Of a stretch of 23,529 nucleotides of DNA, positions 1 to 23,441 are shown one piece after another. The stretch covers positions 1 through 23,529 of IMG/VR virus record IMGVR_UViG_3300044640_000070; one strand, written 5' to 3'. The DNA is from a virus. The notes beneath the pieces are model-generated. The model was given only the letters and a program-made list of their open reading frames with translations. It had not been told where the DNA came from and did not search any database. The translations under genes and the position numbers were made by a program. How positions within the stretch are numbered: the stretch's first letter is position 1; every line of letters starts with the position of its first letter.

Positions 1-1178
1 AAGTCTACCTGGACCAAGAACTCACCCATAAAGCCATTACGGTTCTTACGGAATACGCACTCAAGGATGTCTGAGTTAGTGGCACGACCTAGTGCTAGTA
101 CCCAGTCAGCATCGTAGGCGATCTGACGAGACCATGCGGTCTGGCCTAGCGTAGGAACTGTGTCTAGTTTAGTAACGTCATCTGGCGTAGCAGACGAGAT
201 AGCAATGATAGGCATCTCTTCGCTAATAGCCATAAGTTTGAGTTCACGAGATAGGTTCTTCATACGTACCGTTTCGTTGTCTGACTTCTGGTTAGGCGAC
301 ATCAACTGTAGGTAGTCTACGATGACTAGGTCTGGCTTATACTGGTCAATCTTTCCACGAATAACTGATGGGTTTACTTCTCCACCAGAATCGTTTGAGA
401 TGATGTGGAACTCTGGCTTACCAGCAAGTTCCTTAGAGTGCCAACGCTTTAGGTCGTCAATCTCTACTTGACCATTAGATAGTTTGCGGTGTGACCAAAG
501 ACCCTCGCCCATAATTGCAAATACACGATTACGAACTTCTGTCTCGCTCATTTCAAGAGAGATGATAAGTGGTGATCTGCCTTGCTTCCATGCCTGTACC
601 GCCATGTAGAGTGCAAACCAAGACTTACCGATACCTGGATACGCTAGGAAGACACCCAGTTGGCCTGGCGTAATACCAGCAGGCAGGTAGTTGTCAAATC
701 CTGGCAAACCAGTCTTGATACCAATTGAGCCAAGTGCTTGCTGTCTTGCAAGGTTTTCAAAGTATGCTACCGCTGAATCAAGATCTGTGGCATCAATGTC
801 ACGGATGGTTGCCGTGTTCTTCTTAAGTTCTGAAGTCTTAGCAATGATTGTTTCTAGTGCATCAGAACTGTGGCCAGCCTGCACATCGGCAGCAGCAGTG
901 CGAAGAAGTTCTTTAACGCTGTCGTTTAGGAATTCTTTCTGGAGTTCTTCTAGGTGATACTTGGTAGCACCAATGTTTTCGGCAGGGGTGAAGTCACGAA
1001 ACTTTTCGATTACTAGCGACACTGGTGGCACTGACGAGTTAGCCTCTGAATAGTTTCTGATAAACTGCCAGATGTCTTTGTGGGTACGCAAAAGATTCTC
1101 TACGTTTGCCTGTAGTAGCACGTGAACCTGTTTGTCTTGTAGGACTGCTGTTAGCAGTCTAGCCTCTGTATTACTCAT
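1..1178 (-). CDS. dnaB: DnaB-type replicative DNA helicase, C-terminal end cut by the window edge
   Basis: Replicative helicase: a hexameric ring ATPase that unwinds DNA at the phage replication fork. I translated 392 complete residues from the ATG at 1178; the frame is open to base 1. The C-terminal half has the RecA-like core of the DnaB family: a Walker A-like loop AYPGIGKS (Lys185, Ser186), the SLEMS motif with a likely catalytic Glu209, Walker B LVIVDYLQLM (Asp288), an LSRELK stretch, and FRKNRNG near residues 376-382, where DnaB has its arginine-finger region. The N-terminal ~150 residues would be the DnaB N-terminal domain and linker. Only a few C-terminal residues should be missing. 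Its start overlaps the stop of the upstream gene (ATGAGTAA), suggesting translational coupling. Odd point: the strand after PIIAIS reads SATPDD where DnaB proteins usually have SQLNR. Family assignment is firm; gene_symbol is by family, not locus name. Confidence 0.93.
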   Translation of the reverse strand, partial: MSNTEARLLTAVLQDKQVHVLLQANVENLLRTHKDIWQFIRNYSEANSSVPPVSLVIEKFRDFTPAENIGATKYHLEELQKEFLNDSVKELLRTAAADVQAGHSSDALETIIAKTSELKKNTATIRDIDATDLDSAVAYFENLARQQALGSIGIKTGLPGFDNYLPAGITPGQLGVFLAYPGIGKSWFALYMAVQAWKQGRSPLIISLEMSETEVRNRVFAIMGEGLWSHRKLSNGQVEIDDLKRWHSKELAGKPEFHIISNDSGGEVNPSVIRGKIDQYKPDLVIVDYLQLMSPNQKSDNETVRMKNLSRELKLMAISEEMPIIAISSATPDDVTKLDTVPTLGQTAWSRQIAYDADWVLALGRATNSDILECVFRKNRNGFMGEFLVQVD

Positions 1179-9694: not shown

Positions 9695-10386
9695 TATGCC
9701 TCTTCCAGCGTGAGCGAAATGTTCCAGAAGTCGTGATTGGTTCCGCCTCGCTTTACTACAGAATACTGAAAGTCTGCAAAGTATACCTCTATGACCTCAT
9801 TATATTTTTGAAGATTTACATACTTGGTTTCTGGGTCATCGAAGTTATCGTACTTGTCGTATGCTAGATATACCCAGAAAGATCCAGGGTGGTTTTCGTA
9901 CCAGTCTAGAAGCTCTACTCCACCAGCACCACCATCGGTTGTAAACTGCTGTGCAGGAACTGTAATAAACTCTCCTGGATTGTTTATGTCTGGAACAACG
10001 TCTGGGTATTGATCATAAATAGCGACACCAGATGCAGAAAAAGTTGGGTAACGACCATAAGATCTAGATGGAAGCATGTCCCAAGACGTAGAGATAGTCA
10101 TCTTGTCTGCGATGTGGTGAGACCGCATTCTTCCATTTATCATTCTTTCACGCTTTTCTAAACGTGTTGGGGTAAAGCTAATGTCTCCTCTGTTGTCATC
10201 TGACAGGATTACGAACTGGTCTGCATAGTCTTGATTTAGAACAATTGTGCTATCTGCACCAATCTCATACCCTTCTGGAATATATAGACCATCTACAAGT
10301 ATTCCTGGGTTGTCTGCAAATAGCATTGCCTGTGGTCGCTGATACTTTTTACGCCCTAGCATATATTGAGATGTGTTGTAAGTCAT
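9694..10386 (-). CDS. Distal tail-like minor tail protein
   Basis: A 230-aa, mostly beta-strand protein placed between the tape measure and the large hub protein, the standard position of the distal tail protein (Dit) or an equivalent minor tail protein. Visible features: an N-terminal Tyr/Arg/Lys-rich stretch (LGRKKYQRPQ), a segment TPTRLEKRERMINGRMRSHH (83-102) followed by DKMTISTSWDMLPSRSY, a Gly-rich loop TTDGGAGGVELLDWYENHPG, and C-terminal strands VYFADFQYSVVKRGGTNHDF with a final acidic tail. The 'v..v.F..fs..vvkRg..dfW.vsl.leE' ending is common in phage tail proteins whose last strand closes a beta sandwich. TAATG joins it to both neighbours, so the three genes are translated in series. 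Dit assignment rests on position and fold impression only. Confidence 0.82.
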   Translation of the reverse strand: MTYNTSQYMLGRKKYQRPQAMLFADNPGILVDGLYIPEGYEIGADSTIVLNQDYADQFVILSDDNRGDISFTPTRLEKRERMINGRMRSHHIADKMTISTSWDMLPSRSYGRYPTFSASGVAIYDQYPDVVPDINNPGEFITVPAQQFTTDGGAGGVELLDWYENHPGSFWVYLAYDKYDNFDDPETKYVNLQKYNEVIEVYFADFQYSVVKRGGTNHDFWNISLTLEEA

Positions 10387-13300
10387 TAGAATCTATTACC
10401 TCTTAGTTGTTGGCTGTTAATCTGTTTAATTTGACCCATAACCGCTCTAGCAATTTGGTCTGGGTTGGCATCAGAACGGACGTTAACATTTACCTCATAA
10501 CTATTATACACTGAACCGCCAGACAATTCTCCAGAATTCATTGCTTTCATTGTGTCTACGCCATATGCATCTACTGCGTACTTGCTCATAATAAATTCTC
10601 CAGGTGTTAGCATAGCAGGTACTGTATCTGTTCCCCTAGCCATACCGCCAAAACCAAAGTATGAAGGCTTAACCATTCCACCAGCAGCCATCATCTTTGG
10701 TGGTGGCTCTGGAGATCCCATAACCATTCCACCCTTTGCGTATAACGAATATGCTACTGCACGTCCACCACCGCCACCTGCAGGTATCTCGTCATTGGCA
10801 CCTGGATTTGGGTTAGTGTAGTCTAGCTGTGCCTGAGATGCTAGAAGTTGAGCTTCTGCCAAAATATCTTTGTAGTTGGTTGCTGCAGTTGCTGCAAGAT
10901 CAATGTTGTTTTTCAATTGATCCCACTTAAGCTTTTCATCGTCTAGAGCTTTAAGCTTTACGTCTCTTTCGTACATTGCCAAGTCTACTCTTGTTTGTGC
11001 TGGCTCTAGTCTGTCTTCTTCGATATTAAAAATTTGCATTTCTAGATCTTTGATTCGCTTGTTAATCTCTTCTTTTGTAAGATTTAGAGTTTGCCCATTA
11101 ACCTGAACACGAGTTGTTAGGTTGTTTAGTTCTGCTTCTCTTTGCTTTTCAAGGTTCTTAATTTTTGCATCCATTGCCTCTTTAGCTTGGCGTTGCTGTT
11201 CTTTTTGAATTGCCTCTGCAGCAGCACCAACATCTCCACGAGCCAAGGCAGCAGAAATATTTAGCTCTGCATTCTTTTGTTCTGCAATTTTATCATTAAG
11301 GTCTCTAATACTTTCTAGCGAAGCAATTCTGTCATCATACTTTTTATTAATAGCTTCTTCTACTGGCTCAAGTCTTGTTAGTCCAGCATTGTAGTCGTCT
11401 AGTTGATTACGAACATTATTGATTTCGTTTTGAGCTGCTGCTATAACGTCTTTATCTCCAGAAGTTTTTAGCTCAAAGTCGATAGTTATCTTGTTTCTAT
11501 CGGCATCAAGTTTCTTGTTTACCTTTGTAGTTAAATCGTTAAACTGTTCTTCTGCAGTTTTTGCGTCTTCTGCTGCAGCTTTTTGTTCTTTATACAGTTC
11601 AATTGTTTGTCTAATTGCTGCATTTTTATCTTTAATATTCGTGCTTGCTTTAATTGCTGCAATTGCTTCTGCAAGCCCCGAATCTCTTGATGCTTCAACA
11701 GCTTCCTCGTATGTCATTTTAGTTGCTTGTTGATTTGCCAATAATTCTTTTCTAGCATCCAGTTCTTGCTTTGATGAGTCAATAGCTTTTCTTACAGATC
11801 TTTCATACTCTCCGAGAGTAAGTGCATTGAATAGATTCTGAAGAGCCTCGCCGTCTTTTTTAAGAGTTACAATACCAGCTTTACTAATTGACACATACTT
11901 GCTTCTAACCGCTTCTTCTTGGCTAGAGATAAATTCTATAAAGTCTGCATTATACCCCTTCGCACCCAGTTGTTGTTCAACACCAGCAAATACCGACCCA
12001 TCTTGGTTTTCAAGAGCTCCTGGCTTCATCCATTTAAATAGCTCTTGCATTTTGCCCGAAGCGTTAACTGCTGCCTGACGAATCATCTTCAATCTATTGA
12101 GTAGTTCGTCAAGTGGGTCTGTTCCTGCTCCACCTGTTGGGTCGCCATCACCATCTCCTGTTGCTGGTTTAGGGCCTTCACTTTCTTTTGCTAAGTAGTC
12201 TATCAGCCATAGTTGTGATGAGGCCTTTGCCATTTCTGGAGTAATTACAGATTGCCCACCCATAACTCTTTTAAGATCTATGTTTTGATCTGCTGCCCAG
12301 GCTGTCATTACTGCCTCTGGATCATTAGCAGCAATATAGTCTATCAGTATTGTCTTCTTGATTGTTCCATCAGTATTAGCAAACAACTCCCAGTTACCCT
12401 TAATAGTTTCTAATTCTTCTGTTGTCAGTCCCAGTGTCGCTAGGTCAGTTTCTTTTGTAATTTTTTTGGGCAACTTGTTTAGTGCAGTCATGGCCTTCTG
12501 TACACGTTCAATCTTTTGCTGACCGTTTGTGTTAAGATTTATTTGAACTCCATATTTTCCATTTATGTCTGTAATAGCCTTAAGTGCTGACATAGAGTCA
12601 TTCCATACATCTGGATTCTTAATGTTGGCAAAGAAATCATAGGTTGTTGAGAAGTTTTTTTGATCCAATCCAGAACCAACCAGCAATGATGCCAATTTAG
12701 CATTTTCTGCTGTGCCTCTTTGATTTACAATCAGATCATAGTTTGCAGCAATAGTCTGGTCATTTTGAGCAGCGTTTGCCAAGAAATTAATCGTTCCTGG
12801 ATCTAGCTCCTTCGAAAGAAATGCTAAAGATAGGCCAATCTTTAAATCTTTGTTAAAGACTTGGTCTAGCTTGTCTATAGCATCTTTTGCTTGTGTTCCA
12901 AATGCTGCTAGTGGGGTATCTTTGTAAATGGCATCGGCATTAGTTTTAAAAGCATTGTCAAAATTTTCTTCACCCATAAGCTTAGATTGTTTTACTAGAT
13001 TTTGATATACTTGTGAATTTCTTTTTTGAAGTTTTTCAGTATCGGTATTTCTATTATTAATTAACTGATTTAGTTCAGCTTCAAGCTTTTTACGTTTTTC
13101 AGCATTAGTAGTAGAGGCAATTTCTGCTTCTTTAGCTCTAATTTTTTGGTCATATTGTGAAGCAAGAGAGTCTAGCAATCCCTGGTTTTGTTGTAGTTGT
13201 GTTGCTGCTAAACTAATTGATGCAGCATTGAGTTCATTATTTCTTGCCTGCGTTTTAGCAATGTCTACAACCGATGCTGTTACCAAAGCAGCACTTACAG

Positions 13301-16300
13301 CTAGGGCAGCCCATCCAACTGGGTTCCAAAAGTTAGTGGCTCCAACTGCAAGAATTGTTCCTGCTGCTGCTTGACCTGCTGCTAAAGAACCAGCCACTGC
13401 AGCAGCACCTGCTACAGCGGTAGTAACTGCTGGATTAAAAGCATTTTCTTGACCAGATCTAGCATCATTAAATTGAGCGTTAATCTGTTTTTCGTTTTCT
13501 GCTTGCATTTCAAGCATAACCTTTAGTGGTTCTCTGGCTAGGTCTTCTCCATTTGGACCAAGAATAGAAACAACATTGGCTGAAATATTTGATGCAATTT
13601 CATAGTTCTGCAACTTATTGCCAATACCCATAGCAATGCTTCTAGCTTCTTCTTCAGTAATTGCACCTTGGACAACAGCATAGGCAAGATTCTTTCCAAC
13701 AGTTTTTCCAATCTCTTCATCCGACATGTTACCCTGTTTTTTCATTGCATCTACGTCAGCGAGTATTGACTTTCCTGATTCAGATTCTAGATAGTTCATT
13801 CCGAACTTTCTACCTACGGTCCCTCCTGCACCCATAAAACTTTCGTCTCTTCTCTTTCTAGATTCTGTGGCGGTAACTCTTCCAGTAATTTGAGACATTT
13901 GTATTAGCTTGTCATTTGTTATAGACATTGACTTTCCAAAGTCATACCCCTTTTTGGAACCATCCTCTAGTGCTTTGTTGAATAGGAATACTCCACCAAG
14001 AACAGCCACAAGCCCAGCAACGACTGCTCCGATTGGATTCATAAGCATTGGCAAAACAGATGCAAGCATACCAGCAGCCATTACTCCACCACCAGCAGAT
14101 TGCATTCCTGGATCTCCAGACATCATCATACCCATGCCTACGGTAGATGCAACCATTCCGATACCTCCAGCACGGCCTGCAAGTTTTTGCTTACGTGCAT
14201 CCCTAGCTTCTTTGTTTGCTGCTGCACGTTCTTCTGGGGTCATAGATTTTGTAGCTGACCTAACAGCCTTGCCATCTTCATTAAATGTATATGTTTTTCC
14301 TGTTGGTGTTACATATGAAGAACCTGCTGTTCTTTTATCTTTAATTTGACTTTGAGCAGAATCAAATTCTTCTTTACTTCTGTATGTGGTTCCAGTAGCA
14401 TTGTCAAATATTCTTCCTCCTGCTAACTGAGTGTAAGCATTTGGATCCTTGCTACCTATTGCCCTCAATGTTGCTGCTTGTGCATTTGCAGCGATTGCTG
14501 TTCCAGCCTGTTTAACTATGGGGCTAAGTCCGTCACGAACACCATTTGTAAAGGTTTTTGCTTTTCCTATTGCATTACCTATTGCAGTACCGAATCTTTT
14601 TTGTTGGCTTGAGGATTCAGATCCTGAATTTTCAATTCCAGGAATTGATGGTGCTGTGGGTGGAAGTAGTCCACCGTTATATCCTGGTAGTGTGTCAGTA
14701 ATCATTCCATTAATAAGTGGAGCATACTTCTTAGACATTGCTGCTGGAATAACTGCCTCACCAGGAGAAAGCATTGCTGGCACAACGTCACCAGCACCTT
14801 TTGGACCAGGAACAGAGACAACACCCTTTGCAAGATTCATTGGCTTTGTAGTTGGAATCTTTTTGCCCCTATAAAGTATATGGCTCTCAACAGCCCTATC
14901 GATAGATTTTTTGTCGGTTAGTGGAGATGATGTATCTATCATTTTTGTTAGATCAATTCTCTTGAGTACTTTTCCTACGACTCTCATGTTTCTATTATCA
15001 ATTAGGCCCATGTCTGTTGCTGCCCTTGACAACTTGCCAAGTGTTTCAAGTTCTCTTGGGGTCAGTGTTCCGTTTGATCTTAGTTTTTTAATTAGATCGG
15101 TACCGCCATCTATCTTAGCCTTGTCATTTGCCTTAATAAGTGCAAGCATTGGTGCCGTATCTTTGCCAGTTTTCTTATCTACTAGGCTACTGATGTAACC
15201 ATTAATTGTTCTCGTGTCTGGACTTACGAATGGATACCCCCATCCTGCTACGAATCTTTTAACGTATTCTGGAAGTCCTCCAAGGTGACCTCTAGCCATA
15301 CCTGAAAAAGTTTTTGGGTTTTCTGGATCAAAGTTGGTTATTGCAATTGCTTTTCTGACAAGCTCTCTTTGCTCTATATCTTTATCAGAAAGTCCTGCCT
15401 TTTTGTATTGAGCAAATCTGTCATGATCTTTTCTTTTTTCAAGCTTTTTCTTAATCTGTTTATCATTCAGGCCTTCTTTTTTATATTTTTCAATATCTTG
15501 CTCTATTGTTGTTGGTAGTGGAACTGAAGCTTTTTTTAGCCACGCCTTGAATTCTTTTTTTGTCTGTGGATCATCTCGCATTTCTTCATAGAAGAGCTGA
15601 TTCATGTTTTTAAATATCTTCAGATTGTTTGCTAACGCTTTGTCTGTTTTTGCTTGTTCTTCTAGAAAAACTCCATAGTTTCCAAGAGTTGATGGAGCAC
15701 CTCTAAGTCTTTCTTGTTGGTCTGGACTTTCTCCAAGAAGTCTTCCAATTTGATTTGCTGGTTGAGCATACTTAATTTCTCCAAATGTTGCTGCATAATT
15801 TCTAAATGTTTTAGCATCTACCTTTTCAATTCCTGTTTCTTTGAAATATTTAGCCACCTCTTTTACAATACCCTTGCCATTTGAGCCATATTCTTTTTCT
15901 AAACTTGCAACTTGAAGCTTAATTTGGGCAAGTTCTGTTTCATTTTTTGCATAAATAACAGAGTCTCCAATTGCAAGACTAGATCCACCAGCTTTTGCCT
16001 TTGTATCGACCCTTCCATCGTTAAATCCTGGAAGTCTGTCTTGCATCATGTCAGAAATAAAGCCACGATACTTCTTTGCTTTATCTGCAGGGATTACCGC
16101 TTCGCCTGGAGCAAGCATAGCAGGAACAATGTCTCCTGCTCCCTTTGGTCCTGGAACTGAAAGAACTCCAGATTTATACCCCTTTGTTTTTCCCCCACCT
16201 GCTCTAGTTCTTCCAACAGCTCCCGATGCTGTAAATTTAGCTCCTGCAATCGCAGCATCATTATACGCAGCAGCAAGTTTTCTAACTGCAGTTGTTTCTA

Positions 16301-18182
16301 CTGTAAACTGCTGTGTTAGTTTCTGATGTGCTTGATCTAACGATGCAGCAGCAGCAGCAGCCTCTAACTGCTCATTTGTCATGTATTGTGTTTGTTGTCC
16401 AAGAATATTTGATCCTTGTCCTGCACGAAGAAATAGATTTCTTAGAAAGTTTCCAGTTTTAATTAGGTTTGCAATACCGTTGGCAATAAGACCAAATGCC
16501 ATAATTGCTACTGGTGCTATACCGCCCAAAAGGCCAACAGCATTCATAATAAAAGTCTTAACTCCAGAGTCAAGCTTATTGAACTGCTCCAAGGCCTTTG
16601 TTCCAAATTCAATAATTGGTGTTACAAGTTTTAAGAATTGCTCTCCAAGTGGGATGAGGGATACCTTGATGTCTTCGATAGCTTTTTGGAACTTAAACAT
16701 TGGAGAGTCTTCGACTTTTTTCAATTCTCGTTCTGACAGAATTGCAAGTTCTTCGGAGGTCGCTTTCGCTAACCCAAGTACGGTTTGGGCCTGGCTGCCC
16801 TCTTTTCTTACGTTCTGGAAAAGCGTAGAAAGACGTGCAAACTGGAACTTGCCAAACATTTGTTCGATTGCACGTGCACGGTTTAGTGGGTCAAGGGTGT
16901 TGAGGGCATCTGCCATGCCAAGAACAATACCTTTTACGTCACCCTTGTTAGCGTCTACAATGCCCTTGATGCTAATACCAAAACCTTGCATAAACTCACT
17001 AGCCTTTTGGCTAGGATTAATGATAGACGCAAGACCAGACTTAAGTGCGTTAGCACCTTCTGATGCGTTAATTCCACCTTCCTTCATTGCTGTTAGGAAG
17101 AATGCTAGGTCTTCTACGCTACCGCCGAGCTGTTGAATAACTGGACCAGCTTTTGGAATAGCAATTGTCAGGTCTTCGATGGCTGTTACGGATTGGTTTT
17201 CAACTGCGTTAAGGAAGTTAATTTTTCCAGCAAGGTCTTCTGCAGCAATACCAAAAGCATTAGTGATTGAGATTGTTGTTTCTAGTGCTTGCTCTTGTTC
17301 TACGCCACCAAGAACTGCAAGTCTGTTTGCTTCCGAAACCTGAGCAAGCAGGTCTGCACCCTTCTTACCCATAGCAGCAGCATCGGCAGCTAGCCCCATA
17401 GTTTTAGATGCAGCTACGCCATACTTTGTAAATTCATTACCCAGTTCTTTAATCTGGGAAACCATTTTTTCAGTTTCGTTAGCGGTAGTGGCAAAGTCTC
17501 CATACACACGTCTTAGCCTAATTATCTGCTTTTCCATATCCATGAAGACTCTAGCTGCAGTTGTTCCAAGGTATGCCAGTGGAATTGTAAAACCAACCAT
17601 AAGCTGACGACCAGCCCATTGGGTATTTTTACCAAAGTTTAGAAGGTTGGTAGATCCTTGTTTTATAAGCTGATTAAAGATTTGTTGTTTTTGAGCAGCA
17701 ATTGCTGTTTTTGTTGCAAGCGATTCCATGTCAAGAGCTAGTGGTCTAACCCTAATCGCCTTTACCGCACCACCAGCATCACGACCCAGCTTGATAAACT
17801 GTGTCTGTAGTGTTTTTACTCTTGATTTAGCAACGTGCTCAATCGTATTGAATTCTGTTTTAAACAGTCTTCCAAATGTTTTAGTTGATCCTGCAGCGTA
17901 CCTAAAGTATTGCCCCATAGAGAATTTATTTTTCTCAAGGGCTGTTGTAAAGGATTGTGTGGCACTCTGTACCGTTGCATAAGATGCTGCAAACTTTTTT
18001 GTAGCATTAATAGAGTTGATTAAGTTTCTAGACATGTTCTCTGAGATCGCAGCATTAGCTGCAGATCCAGATGCACGTAAACCTTGATGGAAGAGTGATA
18101 TCTGTCGCTGTAAATTCTTGATACTAGATAAAGCATTGGTAGTATCAATGTTTATATCTATATTGGACTGAATATCAGCCAT
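10386..18182 (-). CDS. Tail tape measure protein, 2598 residues
   Basis: Sets tail length and is likely released when DNA enters the cell. Residues ~195-465 form a clear TP901-type tape-measure domain (RVFMDMEKQIIRLRRVYGDF, then LGNEFTKYGVAASKTMGLAA, GGSVEDLAFFLTAMKEGGIN and EQMFGKFQFARLSTLF). Hydrophobic, possibly membrane-active stretches lie at ~540-580, ~1338-1406 and ~1586-1645. Alpha-helical, coiled-coil-like sequence covers ~2200-2430. A motif around VPAML.PGE occurs three times (from residues 676, 1124 and 2516); the first two bracket a ~400-residue segment of unknown function. Using about 1.5 angstroms per residue known from other siphoviruses, the full length would predict a tail near 390 nm, less if inserts or cleaved parts do not count. 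It starts at ATG 18182 after AGAGGTG and ends as TAATG with the next gene. GC drops sharply after about residue 515. Confidence 0.96.
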   Translation of the reverse strand: MADIQSNIDINIDTTNALSSIKNLQRQISLFHQGLRASGSAANAAISENMSRNLINSINATKKFAASYATVQSATQSFTTALEKNKFSMGQYFRYAAGSTKTFGRLFKTEFNTIEHVAKSRVKTLQTQFIKLGRDAGGAVKAIRVRPLALDMESLATKTAIAAQKQQIFNQLIKQGSTNLLNFGKNTQWAGRQLMVGFTIPLAYLGTTAARVFMDMEKQIIRLRRVYGDFATTANETEKMVSQIKELGNEFTKYGVAASKTMGLAADAAAMGKKGADLLAQVSEANRLAVLGGVEQEQALETTISITNAFGIAAEDLAGKINFLNAVENQSVTAIEDLTIAIPKAGPVIQQLGGSVEDLAFFLTAMKEGGINASEGANALKSGLASIINPSQKASEFMQGFGISIKGIVDANKGDVKGIVLGMADALNTLDPLNRARAIEQMFGKFQFARLSTLFQNVRKEGSQAQTVLGLAKATSEELAILSERELKKVEDSPMFKFQKAIEDIKVSLIPLGEQFLKLVTPIIEFGTKALEQFNKLDSGVKTFIMNAVGLLGGIAPVAIMAFGLIANGIANLIKTGNFLRNLFLRAGQGSNILGQQTQYMTNEQLEAAAAAASLDQAHQKLTQQFTVETTAVRKLAAAYNDAAIAGAKFTASGAVGRTRAGGGKTKGYKSGVLSVPGPKGAGDIVPAMLAPGEAVIPADKAKKYRGFISDMMQDRLPGFNDGRVDTKAKAGGSSLAIGDSVIYAKNETELAQIKLQVASLEKEYGSNGKGIVKEVAKYFKETGIEKVDAKTFRNYAATFGEIKYAQPANQIGRLLGESPDQQERLRGAPSTLGNYGVFLEEQAKTDKALANNLKIFKNMNQLFYEEMRDDPQTKKEFKAWLKKASVPLPTTIEQDIEKYKKEGLNDKQIKKKLEKRKDHDRFAQYKKAGLSDKDIEQRELVRKAIAITNFDPENPKTFSGMARGHLGGLPEYVKRFVAGWGYPFVSPDTRTINGYISSLVDKKTGKDTAPMLALIKANDKAKIDGGTDLIKKLRSNGTLTPRELETLGKLSRAATDMGLIDNRNMRVVGKVLKRIDLTKMIDTSSPLTDKKSIDRAVESHILYRGKKIPTTKPMNLAKGVVSVPGPKGAGDVVPAMLSPGEAVIPAAMSKKYAPLINGMITDTLPGYNGGLLPPTAPSIPGIENSGSESSSQQKRFGTAIGNAIGKAKTFTNGVRDGLSPIVKQAGTAIAANAQAATLRAIGSKDPNAYTQLAGGRIFDNATGTTYRSKEEFDSAQSQIKDKRTAGSSYVTPTGKTYTFNEDGKAVRSATKSMTPEERAAANKEARDARKQKLAGRAGGIGMVASTVGMGMMMSGDPGMQSAGGGVMAAGMLASVLPMLMNPIGAVVAGLVAVLGGVFLFNKALEDGSKKGYDFGKSMSITNDKLIQMSQITGRVTATESRKRRDESFMGAGGTVGRKFGMNYLESESGKSILADVDAMKKQGNMSDEEIGKTVGKNLAYAVVQGAITEEEARSIAMGIGNKLQNYEIASNISANVVSILGPNGEDLAREPLKVMLEMQAENEKQINAQFNDARSGQENAFNPAVTTAVAGAAAVAGSLAAGQAAAGTILAVGATNFWNPVGWAALAVSAALVTASVVDIAKTQARNNELNAASISLAATQLQQNQGLLDSLASQYDQKIRAKEAEIASTTNAEKRKKLEAELNQLINNRNTDTEKLQKRNSQVYQNLVKQSKLMGEENFDNAFKTNADAIYKDTPLAAFGTQAKDAIDKLDQVFNKDLKIGLSLAFLSKELDPGTINFLANAAQNDQTIAANYDLIVNQRGTAENAKLASLLVGSGLDQKNFSTTYDFFANIKNPDVWNDSMSALKAITDINGKYGVQINLNTNGQQKIERVQKAMTALNKLPKKITKETDLATLGLTTEELETIKGNWELFANTDGTIKKTILIDYIAANDPEAVMTAWAADQNIDLKRVMGGQSVITPEMAKASSQLWLIDYLAKESEGPKPATGDGDGDPTGGAGTDPLDELLNRLKMIRQAAVNASGKMQELFKWMKPGALENQDGSVFAGVEQQLGAKGYNADFIEFISSQEEAVRSKYVSISKAGIVTLKKDGEALQNLFNALTLGEYERSVRKAIDSSKQELDARKELLANQQATKMTYEEAVEASRDSGLAEAIAAIKASTNIKDKNAAIRQTIELYKEQKAAAEDAKTAEEQFNDLTTKVNKKLDADRNKITIDFELKTSGDKDVIAAAQNEINNVRNQLDDYNAGLTRLEPVEEAINKKYDDRIASLESIRDLNDKIAEQKNAELNISAALARGDVGAAAEAIQKEQQRQAKEAMDAKIKNLEKQREAELNNLTTRVQVNGQTLNLTKEEINKRIKDLEMQIFNIEEDRLEPAQTRVDLAMYERDVKLKALDDEKLKWDQLKNNIDLAATAATNYKDILAEAQLLASQAQLDYTNPNPGANDEIPAGGGGGRAVAYSLYAKGGMVMGSPEPPPKMMAAGGMVKPSYFGFGGMARGTDTVPAMLTPGEFIMSKYAVDAYGVDTMKAMNSGELSGGSVYNSYEVNVNVRSDANPDQIARAVMGQIKQINSQQLRGNRF
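10587..10637 (-). repeat. Tape-measure PAML-PGE motif, copy 3
   Basis: Residues 2516-2532 of the tape measure, RGTDTVPAMLTPGEFIM, in a Gly/Met-rich C-terminal region. It matches the C-terminal 'G.D.VPAmLtPGEfv' motif I recall from many tape-measure proteins and is a diverged relative of copies 1 and 2. Confidence 0.75.
14745..14813 (-). repeat. Tape-measure PAML-PGE motif, copy 2
   Basis: Residues 1124-1146 of the tape measure, beginning VPGPKGAGDVVPAML and continuing SPGEAVIP. It agrees with copy 1 at 21 of 23 residues. Sixteen of the 24 codons compared differ only by synonymous changes, so the protein sequence, not the DNA, has been kept. Confidence 0.9.
14837..16040 (-). other. Unknown segment inserted between two tape-measure motifs
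   Basis: Encodes about residues 715-1115 of the tape measure. It is lysine-rich and looks globular or helical rather than like the repetitive tape-measure helices. Near residues 897-940 there is an internal twofold repeat: YKKEGLNDKQIKKK and YKKAGLSDKDIEQR, about 28 residues apart. It also has a distinct ARGHLGGLPEYVKRF segment followed by AGWGYPFVSPDTRTINGY. I recognise no enzyme motif. Because it lies between two near-identical motifs it may be a separately acting domain, perhaps carried into the cell with the tape measure; that is inference. Confidence 0.55.
16089..16157 (-). repeat. Tape-measure PAML-PGE motif, copy 1
   Basis: Residues 676-698 of the tape measure, beginning VPGPKGAGDIVPAML and continuing APGEAVIP. 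It is followed by a short stretch also shared with copy 2: KKY, about ten residues, then LPG(F/Y)N.G. It lies just before the unknown segment of residues ~715-1115. Confidence 0.9.
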
Positions 18183-18207: not shown

Positions 18208-18522
18208 TTATTTATTGAGAAGTTGGTTTCCGCCGAGGGCGTAGCCAGAAGCTTCTTCAATAATTGCATAGACAGTTGGAAGGTCAATATTGTCTTCCAA
18301 AGCCTTTAGATCTTCAGATAGTTCAGGCTTAAACTGCTGAAGAGCAATCTGTACACATTCCAACAACGCAGTGATTGACTTATCGTTGTCCTCAGCGACA
18401 TCTTGAATCTTTTCAAACTTGGTCATAAAGGTTCTCAATAGAGAAATCTTTAATGGACGGAGTTCGATCTCTGTTCCGTCTAGTAGTTTGACAGTTTTTG
18501 CCTCATTGATAGTTGTTGCCAT
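18208..18522 (-). CDS. Tail assembly chaperone, short G-type paralogue
   Basis: A 104-aa protein directly before the tape measure, the usual place of the chaperones that keep the tape measure soluble during tail assembly. It is a clear paralogue of the first ~95 residues of the gene just upstream: both begin MAT.I.E.K...L.DGT.I, share PLK...LR.F...FE near residues 22-37, and share a late (E/I).(D/E)..IDLPT.Y..(I/L)...(A/S) block. It lacks the T-type C-terminal region. I looked for continuation in the other two frames after its end; they stop within a short distance, so I see no frameshift product from this gene. The start at ATG 18522 has GGAAGGAA upstream and an extended -10 at 18553. A 25-base A/T-rich gap with AGAGGTG leads to the tape measure. 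Confidence 0.88.
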   Translation of the reverse strand: MATTINEAKTVKLLDGTEIELRPLKISLLRTFMTKFEKIQDVAEDNDKSITALLECVQIALQQFKPELSEDLKALEDNIDLPTVYAIIEEASGYALGGNQLLNK

Positions 18523-18552
18523 TTTCGTTCCTTCCGAAAGTTGTATATATAG

Positions 18553-18561
18553 ATTATATCA
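18553..18561 (-). promoter_or_regulatory. Extended -10 promoter element before the short chaperone gene
   Basis: The minus strand reads TGATATAAT in the 43-base gap between the two chaperone genes. Initiation near 18546 would give a leader of about 24 bases that includes the GGAAGGAA ribosome site, a normal layout. This would let the short chaperone, and the tape measure after it, be made independently of the long one. Confidence 0.5.
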
Positions 18562-18565
18562 TAAA

Positions 18566-19249
18566 CTAGGTCAGTTTTTCGTAACTTAGCCCCATGCCGA
18601 TTCCAAAACCAGCCTTTTGTGCGTTTGCACCCTGCAGTGCAACAACGTCATTTGCGTTAGATGCCTTGCCACCAGAAAATACTCTGGCCTTCATTTCTTC
18701 CCAAGCGTTTTGTTTTCCAGACTGCTTGTCAAGGTCTACCCCCTGCATTGCAGCCAAGAACTTCTTTTCTTGGTAGTCACGTTCCCTTATTGCTTCTAGG
18801 GTAGCGGTTAGCTCTGGCATTGATATAGAAGATTCTAGTTCTTCGTAGTCTTTCCAGATACCCAGCATAAAGGCTTCTGCCTCTAGCTTTGCCAGATCAA
18901 ACTTTTCCCAAGTAGATCCGCTTTCCACAGCCTGATCCTTTACTGTATCCTTGGTGTTACTTTTGCTTATCTTAATACCTGCTGCTATATCCAAAACCTC
19001 ATAGATGGTTGGTAGGTCTATTGAATCTTCTATTTGCTGAAGATTAGAAATTTGTGGATAATACTGTTGCATTGCAATTAGTGCACAATAGGTCAGATAT
19101 TCGATAGCCTGCTTGTCGTCTTTGCATTCTTTTACAAATTCAAACATTGATAGGAATTCTCTTAGATATTTTAGCTTTAGTGGCGAGGCTACAATTGTAG
19201 TACCGTCCACCAGTCTAATTCGTTTTGTTTCATATATTTTAGTTGCCAT
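18566..19249 (-). CDS. Tail assembly chaperone, long in-frame GT-type protein
   Basis: A 227-aa protein with two parts. Residues 1-95 match the short paralogue downstream (G-like part). Residues ~110-227 are a T-like part: a helix with FDLAKLEAEAFMLGIWKDYE, then SISMPELTATLEAIRERDYQ and EKKFLAAMQGVDLDK, a pattern I recall from the frameshifted extension of actinophage chaperones. Here both parts are in one frame, so the long form is made without frameshifting. I saw no classical XXXYYYZ slippery heptamer at the junction. The start at ATG 19249 has no ribosome site; a perfect extended -10 ends six bases before it, so the mRNA is probably leaderless. It would act with the short paralogue to load major tail protein on the tape measure. 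Confidence 0.9.
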   Translation of the reverse strand: MATKIYETKRIRLVDGTTIVASPLKLKYLREFLSMFEFVKECKDDKQAIEYLTYCALIAMQQYYPQISNLQQIEDSIDLPTIYEVLDIAAGIKISKSNTKDTVKDQAVESGSTWEKFDLAKLEAEAFMLGIWKDYEELESSISMPELTATLEAIRERDYQEKKFLAAMQGVDLDKQSGKQNAWEEMKARVFSGGKASNANDVVALQGANAQKAGFGIGMGLSYEKLT

Positions 19250-19255
19250 ATATCT

Positions 19256-19264
19256 ATTATAGCA
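19256..19264 (-). promoter_or_regulatory. Extended -10 promoter positioned for a leaderless mRNA
   Basis: The minus strand reads TGCTATAAT, then AGATAT, then the ATG at 19249. With the usual seven-base distance, transcription would begin at the A of the start codon. No purine-rich ribosome site exists between it and the gene. It follows directly on the U-tract of the preceding terminator. Confidence 0.65.
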
Positions 19265-19302
19265 AAAGAAAACTGCCCAAGAGTAATCTCCTAGGCAGTT
19301 CT
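19264..19302 (-). terminator. Rho-independent terminator after the major tail protein gene
   Basis: On the minus strand, AACTGCCTAGGAG (19288-19300) pairs with CTCTTGGGCAGTT (19271-19283) over 13 positions including two G-U pairs, with the four-base loop ATTA, followed by a U-rich run (UUCUUUU). The stop of the major tail gene lies about 20 bases upstream. On the plus strand the G-U pairs become mismatches, so it is directed at minus-strand transcripts. Confidence 0.82.
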
Positions 19303-19321
19303 CATCTATATTAAGTTATTT

Positions 19322-19999
19322 TTATGATGCTGGAACGGTGCGATCTACGATCTTACCGTATGATGCGTCATCGTTTGGTAGCAAACGGAACGAAACTTCA
19401 AACATTGTTGCTTCGTCACGCTTCGCTGATACTGTAACATTCTCAATTGAGAGTGCACGGTAACCTACGTAGATACGCTCTAGAGCAGATCCAACCTCAC
19501 AGTCACCTGTACCTGGACCTACTGCTACAAGACCACGCTCAACTGGACATTCTCCAATGTCACCAGCCGATAGTCTCATAACTGGGTTGCCATTTGCGAA
19601 TTCTCCAGAACCTGCGGTTCCTAGATCGTCGTCCTTGCCTGCAAGAGAGAACAATAGGTTCTCTAGTGTAGACTCAGCAAATGTGGTATTTAGGTTTACC
19701 TGCATACCTTGCTTGTATAGCTTGGCAACGTCAAGAACCTGGTCAACACGCACCTCACCGAAATCAGGCTGGAACTGTAGTTCTAGACCGTTCATGGTGT
19801 ATCCAACGTTGCGGAAGTCAGTATCTGCTTCAAGGGTGTCCTTGTAAGAAGTTCCTGCTACAACTGATGGAAGGTCTGTGTTAGCCTGAGCATCGGTAAG
19901 CTTTCCTGCGATAGTCTTACCAATTGGTCCTGCTTCGTATGTAAAAAGTGCTGCTGCACCAACAATGATGTTAGCACTTGTACCTCTGTTATATGCCAT
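19322..19999 (-). CDS. Major tail protein
   Basis: A 225-aa protein forming the stacked rings of the tail tube. Evidence is its size, beta-rich sequence, position between the tail-terminator-like gene and the chaperones, and signs of high expression: its own promoter region and ribosome site, a strong terminator behind it, and higher GC (a sample line counts 52%) than most fibre genes. Segments fit a tail-tube fold: an N-terminal small-residue stretch ANIIVGAAALFTYEAGPIGK, a central YTMNGLELQFQPDFGEVRVD strand pair, and a late strand MFEVSFRLLPNDD. Two cysteines sit close together in GECPVERG and TGDCEVG (about residues 151-169). The start at ATG 19999 is preceded by AGAGGTG about seven bases away. 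I recall similar N-termini in long-tailed actinophages, but cannot verify it here. Confidence 0.85.
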   Translation of the reverse strand: MAYNRGTSANIIVGAAALFTYEAGPIGKTIAGKLTDAQANTDLPSVVAGTSYKDTLEADTDFRNVGYTMNGLELQFQPDFGEVRVDQVLDVAKLYKQGMQVNLNTTFAESTLENLLFSLAGKDDDLGTAGSGEFANGNPVMRLSAGDIGECPVERGLVAVGPGTGDCEVGSALERIYVGYRALSIENVTVSAKRDEATMFEVSFRLLPNDDASYGKIVDRTVPAS

Positions 20000-23432: not shown

Positions 23433-23441
23433 ATTATAGCA
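23433..23441 (-). promoter_or_regulatory. Extended -10 promoter before the connector operon
   Basis: The minus strand reads TGCTATAAT, identical to the element at 19256-19264, and again right behind a terminator. Initiation near 23426 would leave a short leader with AGGAGG just downstream of the start point. No good -35 is visible, since that space is taken by the terminator arm. Confidence 0.6.

Follow-up and report, generated by a model that had tools for sequence, protein, structure and literature searches.

Two adjacent tail-assembly chaperone genes as a probable replacement for a programmed frameshift in a clade of uncultured phages

How can a tailed phage supply both forms of its tail-assembly chaperone (TAC) if a programmed frameshift is not used? 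Few recoding events in tailed phages are as conserved as the −1 frameshift in tail chaperone genes, which is taken as needed for fixing the ratio of the short form (G) to the long form (GT). The question is raised by a 23.5-kb virus record from IMG/VR (IMGVR_UViG_3300044640_000070, positions 1 to 23,529; this whole stretch of 23,529 nt is referred to as the window), in which a major tail protein gene, a 227-aa gene, a 104-aa gene, and a 2598-aa tape measure gene follow each other on the minus strand (Table 1). A sequence-only reading of the window had proposed that the 227-aa and 104-aa genes are paralogous chaperone genes, long form first and each with its own extended −10 promoter, that stand in for the frameshift; both open reading frames (ORFs) are present where that reading placed them. 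Based on comparisons with relatives, it is very probable that the two adjacent genes make both TAC forms, replacing the layout in which T occupies the −1 frame; initiation would then determine the G:GT ratio.

The 104-aa protein and the N-terminal part of the 227-aa protein are identical at 40 of 93 aligned residues (43%; 66 of 93 positive; BLASTP E-value, 3e-25), which disposes of the objection that the two N-terminal parts might lack significant similarity. Both proteins matched phrog_10504 (4.7e-20 for the long protein and 3.6e-18 for the short), and the long protein alone matched phrog_10474 (residues 131–189, 2.2e-14). The long gene therefore joins G and T in one continuous frame, and the short gene is a second G. 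The same two families are matched in the Streptomyces phage Circinus by G (phrog_10504) and by the T ORF, in the −1 frame (phrog_10474), and the labels ‘G-like’ and ‘T-like’ originally given to the two parts therefore hold. The proteins are homologous to proteins annotated as TACs in related phages, their genes are flanked by those for the major tail protein and the tape measure protein in an order shared by the relatives, and, as known from the genes alone, a short and a long form possess a common N-terminal domain. By analogy, the pair is predicted to bind the tape measure and tail tube proteins and to be needed for tails. The locus lacks the frameshift-type arrangement, in which a slippery site towards the 3′ end of G leads into T in a different frame. 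A scan of both window genes returned no conserved slippery heptamer. Further, the tape measure ORF begins 25 nt past the 104-aa gene, leaving no room for a T domain after it, and no promoter was seen in the gap between the G stop and the tape measure start.

Searches using tblastn recovered the genes in 127–130 annotated phages, nearly all of them Stanwilliamsviridae of Streptomyces, and always at <60% identity. All ten annotated records examined, including Rhodococcus phage Francesca, have a single G gene with T in the −1 frame; in Francesca, the chaperone is annotated as a join, with GGGAAAA at the overlap. For a number of Stanwilliamsviridae records (L084, L087, L092, and others in the collection), the annotation gives T a late start and lists it on its own, either as a hypothetical protein or as a second chaperone. 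The −1 frame in records of this type is open back to the slippery site, and a join would be preferable.

Three queries (the GT protein and one profile each for the T and G domains) were used to gather relatives from viral contigs, and the layout of 250 loci was determined by profile searches of all forward ORFs. The first collection, with its fused query, favoured fused loci, while the two profile collections were gathered without regard to layout. A fused GT with a separate G was found at 147 of the 250 loci and one G with T in the −1 frame (‘split’) at 99, or 100 with Francesca, which is also split but fell 14 nt outside the distance cut-off used; the contigs are related, such that these counts are not independent events. 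The remaining three loci are fused with no separate G visible, on contigs that end 102–139 nt past GT. Across the 250 loci, there was no fused GT alone with room for G and no split gene with an extra G. The two layouts exclude each other. Deduplication left 110 fused and 75 split sequences, the paralogy, the one-frame fusion, and the order of GT before G were confirmed and are conserved in >100 distinct relatives, and six long contigs (101–125 kb) each contained exactly two G domains. In a single contig, an indel at a slippery site would, on general reasoning, look like a fused frame, but the chance that errors in sequencing or assembly turned an ordinary frameshift gene into a fused one is negligible; this explanation is refuted by the agreement of 110 distinct fused sequences from many samples and by the presence of a second G wherever the downstream sequence suffices.

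The group is a large set of uncultured aquatic phages, probably of actinobacteria. A scan of genomes for a host returned one relative only, a split-type locus whose 110-kb contig (CAINGU010000031.1) had been assigned to the bin of an uncultured cyanobacterium. This contig is probably a misbinned phage, and no host is claimed on its account.

A slippery-type motif occurs at the overlap in all 75 split sequences (CCCAAA, n = 59; CCCGGAA, n = 13; GGGAAA, n = 3), mostly at the same LNDP codons, though CCCGGAA departs from the strict X XXY YYZ pattern and is assigned a slippery use from its position. An in-frame X XXY YYZ heptamer was absent from 100 of the 110 fused linkers, the other ten having scattered types, and from 100 of the 108 3′ ends of separate G genes. 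Synonymous conservation reached 1.5–1.8 times the expectation at the 3′ end of split G genes, as for a dual-coding or recoding region, compared to ~1.1 at the end of separate G genes and a peak of 1.27 in the GT linker. A cryptic frameshift might nevertheless persist, with GT slipping in the linker to give a short form or G slipping to another frame, and there are isolated heptamers of the kind this would use, including TTTTTTG near residue 125 in 10 of 81 GT genes and one CCCAAAT in the linker of a single relative (L227). The lack of heptamers in most linkers and G 3′ ends, the synonymous conservation that is not raised at the end of G and only slightly raised in the GT linker, and the absence of a T domain after G make such slipping highly improbable, bordering on the negligible. 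The proposal that two genes replace the frameshift is supported: the window has no conserved slippery site and no second T domain, and the nearest annotated relatives keep the frameshift layout.

The start signals of the two genes, a subject on which the sequence-only reading went no further than the promoters, are of two kinds: the long gene looks leaderless and the short gene has a short leader with a strong Shine-Dalgarno (SD) motif. A T-run terminator-like hairpin was found 5′ of GT in 39 of 39 fused representatives, directly followed in all 39 by a −10 element (extended in 37), and the T run leads straight into the TGN of the extended −10 (window positions 19303–19256), forming one compact terminator–promoter unit throughout these representatives. 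The −10 hexamer ends 4–10 nt 5′ of the GT ATG in 107 of 108 distinct sequences, usually at 6 nt, so that the predicted +1 coincides with the first base of the start codon, and an SD-like motif was found in none of the 108 within the 20 nt searched 5′ of the start. From these consensus calls, the GT mRNA is predicted to be leaderless; TA-led genes with such spacing are taken as leaderless and comprise >20% of genes in Actinobacteria (PMC3160421).

In all but one of 40 representatives, the separate G gene is preceded by TGN with TATAAT, the exception having TATACT; the element is usually 24–27 nt 5′ of the start. An SD-like motif occurs in all 40 representatives and all 108 distinct sequences of separate G genes, and was also present in 73 of 74 split G genes. 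Median anti-SD energies were −10.2 kcal/mol for separate G, −8.9 kcal/mol for split G, and −2.8 kcal/mol for GT. The start of the separate G is thus of the same kind as that of the split genes, while GT, which holds the old position after the tail protein gene, differs. Extended −10 elements occurred in 7–8% of dinucleotide-shuffled upstream regions compared to the observed 37 of 39 (GT) and 40 of 40 (G). The extended −10 proposed for each window gene is real, and the separate promoters are conserved in >100 distinct relatives. GT promoters depart from TATAAT in 27 of 39 representatives compared to 1 of 40 for G promoters.

Two genes could replace the frameshift and still be expressed at similar rates, with the stoichiometry arising from assembly affinity or proteolysis. 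The G domain at the N-terminus of GT (GT-N) and the separate G have diverged to 43% identity, with a longer stem for GT-N (0.75 in the G-domain tree), so binding may differ, and leaderless initiation is common in actinobacteria (PMC3160421). Set against the near-perfect conservation of the contrast in start signals and the excess of departures from TATAAT among GT promoters, similar rates of synthesis appear unlikely, though plausible enough to be kept in view.

Within the window, TGNTATAAT occurs five times on the coding strand and is absent from the other strand. Sites of the form TGNTAT[AT][AC]T are strongly strand-biased (10 compared to 1), with minus strand sites at 23441, 20062, 19264, 18561, 2748, 1882, and 1780, several of them just 5′ of genes, which suggests that the phage uses extended −10 promoters in its structural region. 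A generic sigma-70 scan called 7 promoters where chance alone would give 6.4, and it does not detect extended −10 elements that lack a −35; only its terminator call at 19303–19268 was useful.

A tree of G domains with the relatives, rooted on Francesca, placed the split G genes in a basal, paraphyletic position, with GT-N forming one group and the separate G genes beside it. GT-N and the separate G genes fall within one group of 83 rows (Shimodaira–Hasegawa-like approximate likelihood ratio test [SH-aLRT], 94) that includes one long-branched split row (L119). Since GT-N and G cluster with each other inside the range of split G genes, the gene was probably duplicated a single time, in an ancestor that still used the frameshift; this is the simplest reading, with reversals possible. 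In a tree based on T and the major tail protein, the fused layout calls for three changes with all rows included, a figure that drops to one (SH-aLRT, 88) on removal of four long-branched rows. Two split loci, L119 (2190–2866) and L158 (2211–2899), possess GGGAAAC at a spot other than that of the usual CCCAAAY and fall near or among the fused loci in the trees. Either a frameshift that evolved anew or the misplacement of long branches could account for them.

Because the fused clade may stem from one event, the co-occurrence of the two genes could be one inherited accident, in which case the 104-aa protein might have another task, such as a second tape-measure chaperone or regulation, and be paired with the fused GT through shared descent only. 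This is very unlikely, considering that G is still close to the split G genes in sequence and start signals, that G was not lost in any long contig checked, and that TP901-1 does not tolerate a forced fusion lacking free G, since a phage locked in the GT frame (a permanent G–T fusion) produced normal-looking particles without infectivity (PMC4493119). In lambda, a G to GT ratio of ~30:1 is needed, with G coating the tape measure protein and T recruiting the tail tube protein (PMC5009743). Together, the TP901-1 fusion and the lambda ratio imply that a fused gene alone should fail, in agreement with the observation that fused-only loci were never seen.

Under the two-gene replacement, the frameshifting ancestor would have duplicated a unit of promoter, leader, and G. 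One copy would have become fixed in frame with T and lost its leader, giving rise to GT, while the other would have retained the promoter, leader, and SD and lost T, giving rise to the separate G. Expression of GT would be low and would come from a leaderless transcript of its own, which the terminator insulates from the major tail protein gene. A second promoter, nearer to consensus, and a strong SD would yield an excess of G, with the GT transcript probably a further source of it. We infer that the G:GT ratio would be set by promoter and translation strength, through the initiation of transcription and translation and not through slippage of the ribosome. If lambda is a guide, the tape measure protein would be coated by numerous G and a small number of GT, and the major tail protein would be recruited through the T domain of the latter. 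That this represents one clade-wide switch in the control of G:GT, from frameshifting to initiation, with a leaderless and terminator-insulated GT and an SD-led G with its own promoter, is likely, at lesser confidence than the replacement itself.

Several points weigh against this account. No annotated isolate was found to have the two-gene layout, and both host and function are therefore judged from kinship to the Streptomyces phages. Promoters and leaderless starts were called from consensus. Actinobacteria can initiate efficiently on leaderless mRNAs, which makes the lower output of GT a supposition, and the GT promoter of the window itself has a perfect TATAAT. Short alignments underlie the trees, and with three changes required before row removal, one origin is favoured but not proven. 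The AlphaFold2 model of GT had a mean predicted local distance difference test (pLDDT) score of 76 (~90 within the G domain), while the model of the G gene product was of low confidence (pLDDT, 57). The models show a predicted hairpin plus helices in the G domain, for which the match to the HK97 TAC (2ob9) was weak (Z, 4.4) and level with unrelated chains. Matches in a viral structure library included an annotated TAC (2e-4), N15 GT (1.2e-2), and an Enterococcus frameshift chaperone (2.9e-2), and a TAC fold for the G domain is suggestive only. Foldseek against the PDB gave no match at E ≤ 0.001, a PDB sequence search with the G profile gave nothing meaningful, and Pfam gave no relevant match.

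Table 1. Features of the chaperone locus and its neighbours in the window
Feature	Position	Strand	Description or basis
GT, long tail-assembly chaperone	18566..19249	-	227 aa, single unbroken frame
GT domains: G ~residues 1-100, linker ~100-113, T ~114-227		-	Sequence comparison
G, short tail-assembly chaperone	18208..18522	-	104 aa, paralogue of the G domain
Intrinsic terminator between major tail protein gene and GT	19268..19303	-	Generic promoter/terminator scan
Extended -10 TGCTATAAT of GT	19256..19264	-	Hexamer end 6 nt 5′ of ATG; predicts leaderless mRNA; no Shine-Dalgarno
Extended -10 TGATATAAT of G gene	18553..18561	-	Hexamer 30 nt 5′ of ATG
Shine-Dalgarno GGAAGGA of G gene	18529..18535	-	Sequence
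Major tail protein, upstream neighbour	19322..19999	-	Ig-domain tail protein of Stanwilliamsviridae, ~45% identity
Tape measure protein, downstream neighbour	10386..18182	-	2598 aa; identified by position and length

The clade suggests that the frameshift can be replaced by gene duplication and divergent start signals while the order of tail genes and the homologous tail proteins are kept. It may offer a natural test of whether the ratio itself matters or its hard-wiring in one mRNA, and frameshifting sister lineages survive, so that, if the switch is true, both solutions are directly comparable. For annotators, a lone long or a second short chaperone gene is not necessarily an error or a missed frameshift. 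A literature search, incomplete for subscription papers and as such weak evidence of novelty, returned no report of a two-gene layout in a siphovirus lineage, of its exclusion relative to frameshifting sisters, or of the contrast between leaderless and SD-led starts.

The principle of two genes is already known from the T4-like phages, which, according to Vladimirov, Gautam and Davidson (2022; doi 10.1016/j.virol.2021.11.003) as cited by the authors of PRFect in PMC10885494, have one short TAC gene and one longer fusion gene. As that work is cited, the resemblance to the present locus, with separate short and fused long genes and no frameshift needed, is one of layout only, and the T4-like genes belong to another TAC lineage. 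Among the Microbacterium Cluster EA phages, some subclusters lack an evident frameshift and two ORFs appear to be separately expressed, but these are described as a TAC ORF pair, with no mention of a fused long gene and a paralogous short gene (PMC7302621). Lambda G/GT, TP901-1 gpG/gpGT, and HK97 gp13 share with the locus the predicted roles of the G and T domains and weak structural matches (including N15 GT and HK97 gp13), though lambda and TP901-1 derive both forms from one gene by a −1 frameshift. The closest comparison is with the Stanwilliamsviridae (Streptomyces phages Forrest, Karimac, Circinus, Coruscant, and others), which have homologous G and T domains, a chaperone placed between the major tail protein and tape measure protein, and a promoter 5′ of the chaperone gene, but which differ in having one SD-led G and no separate G, CCCAAAY or CCCGGAA being the site from which T continues in the −1 frame.
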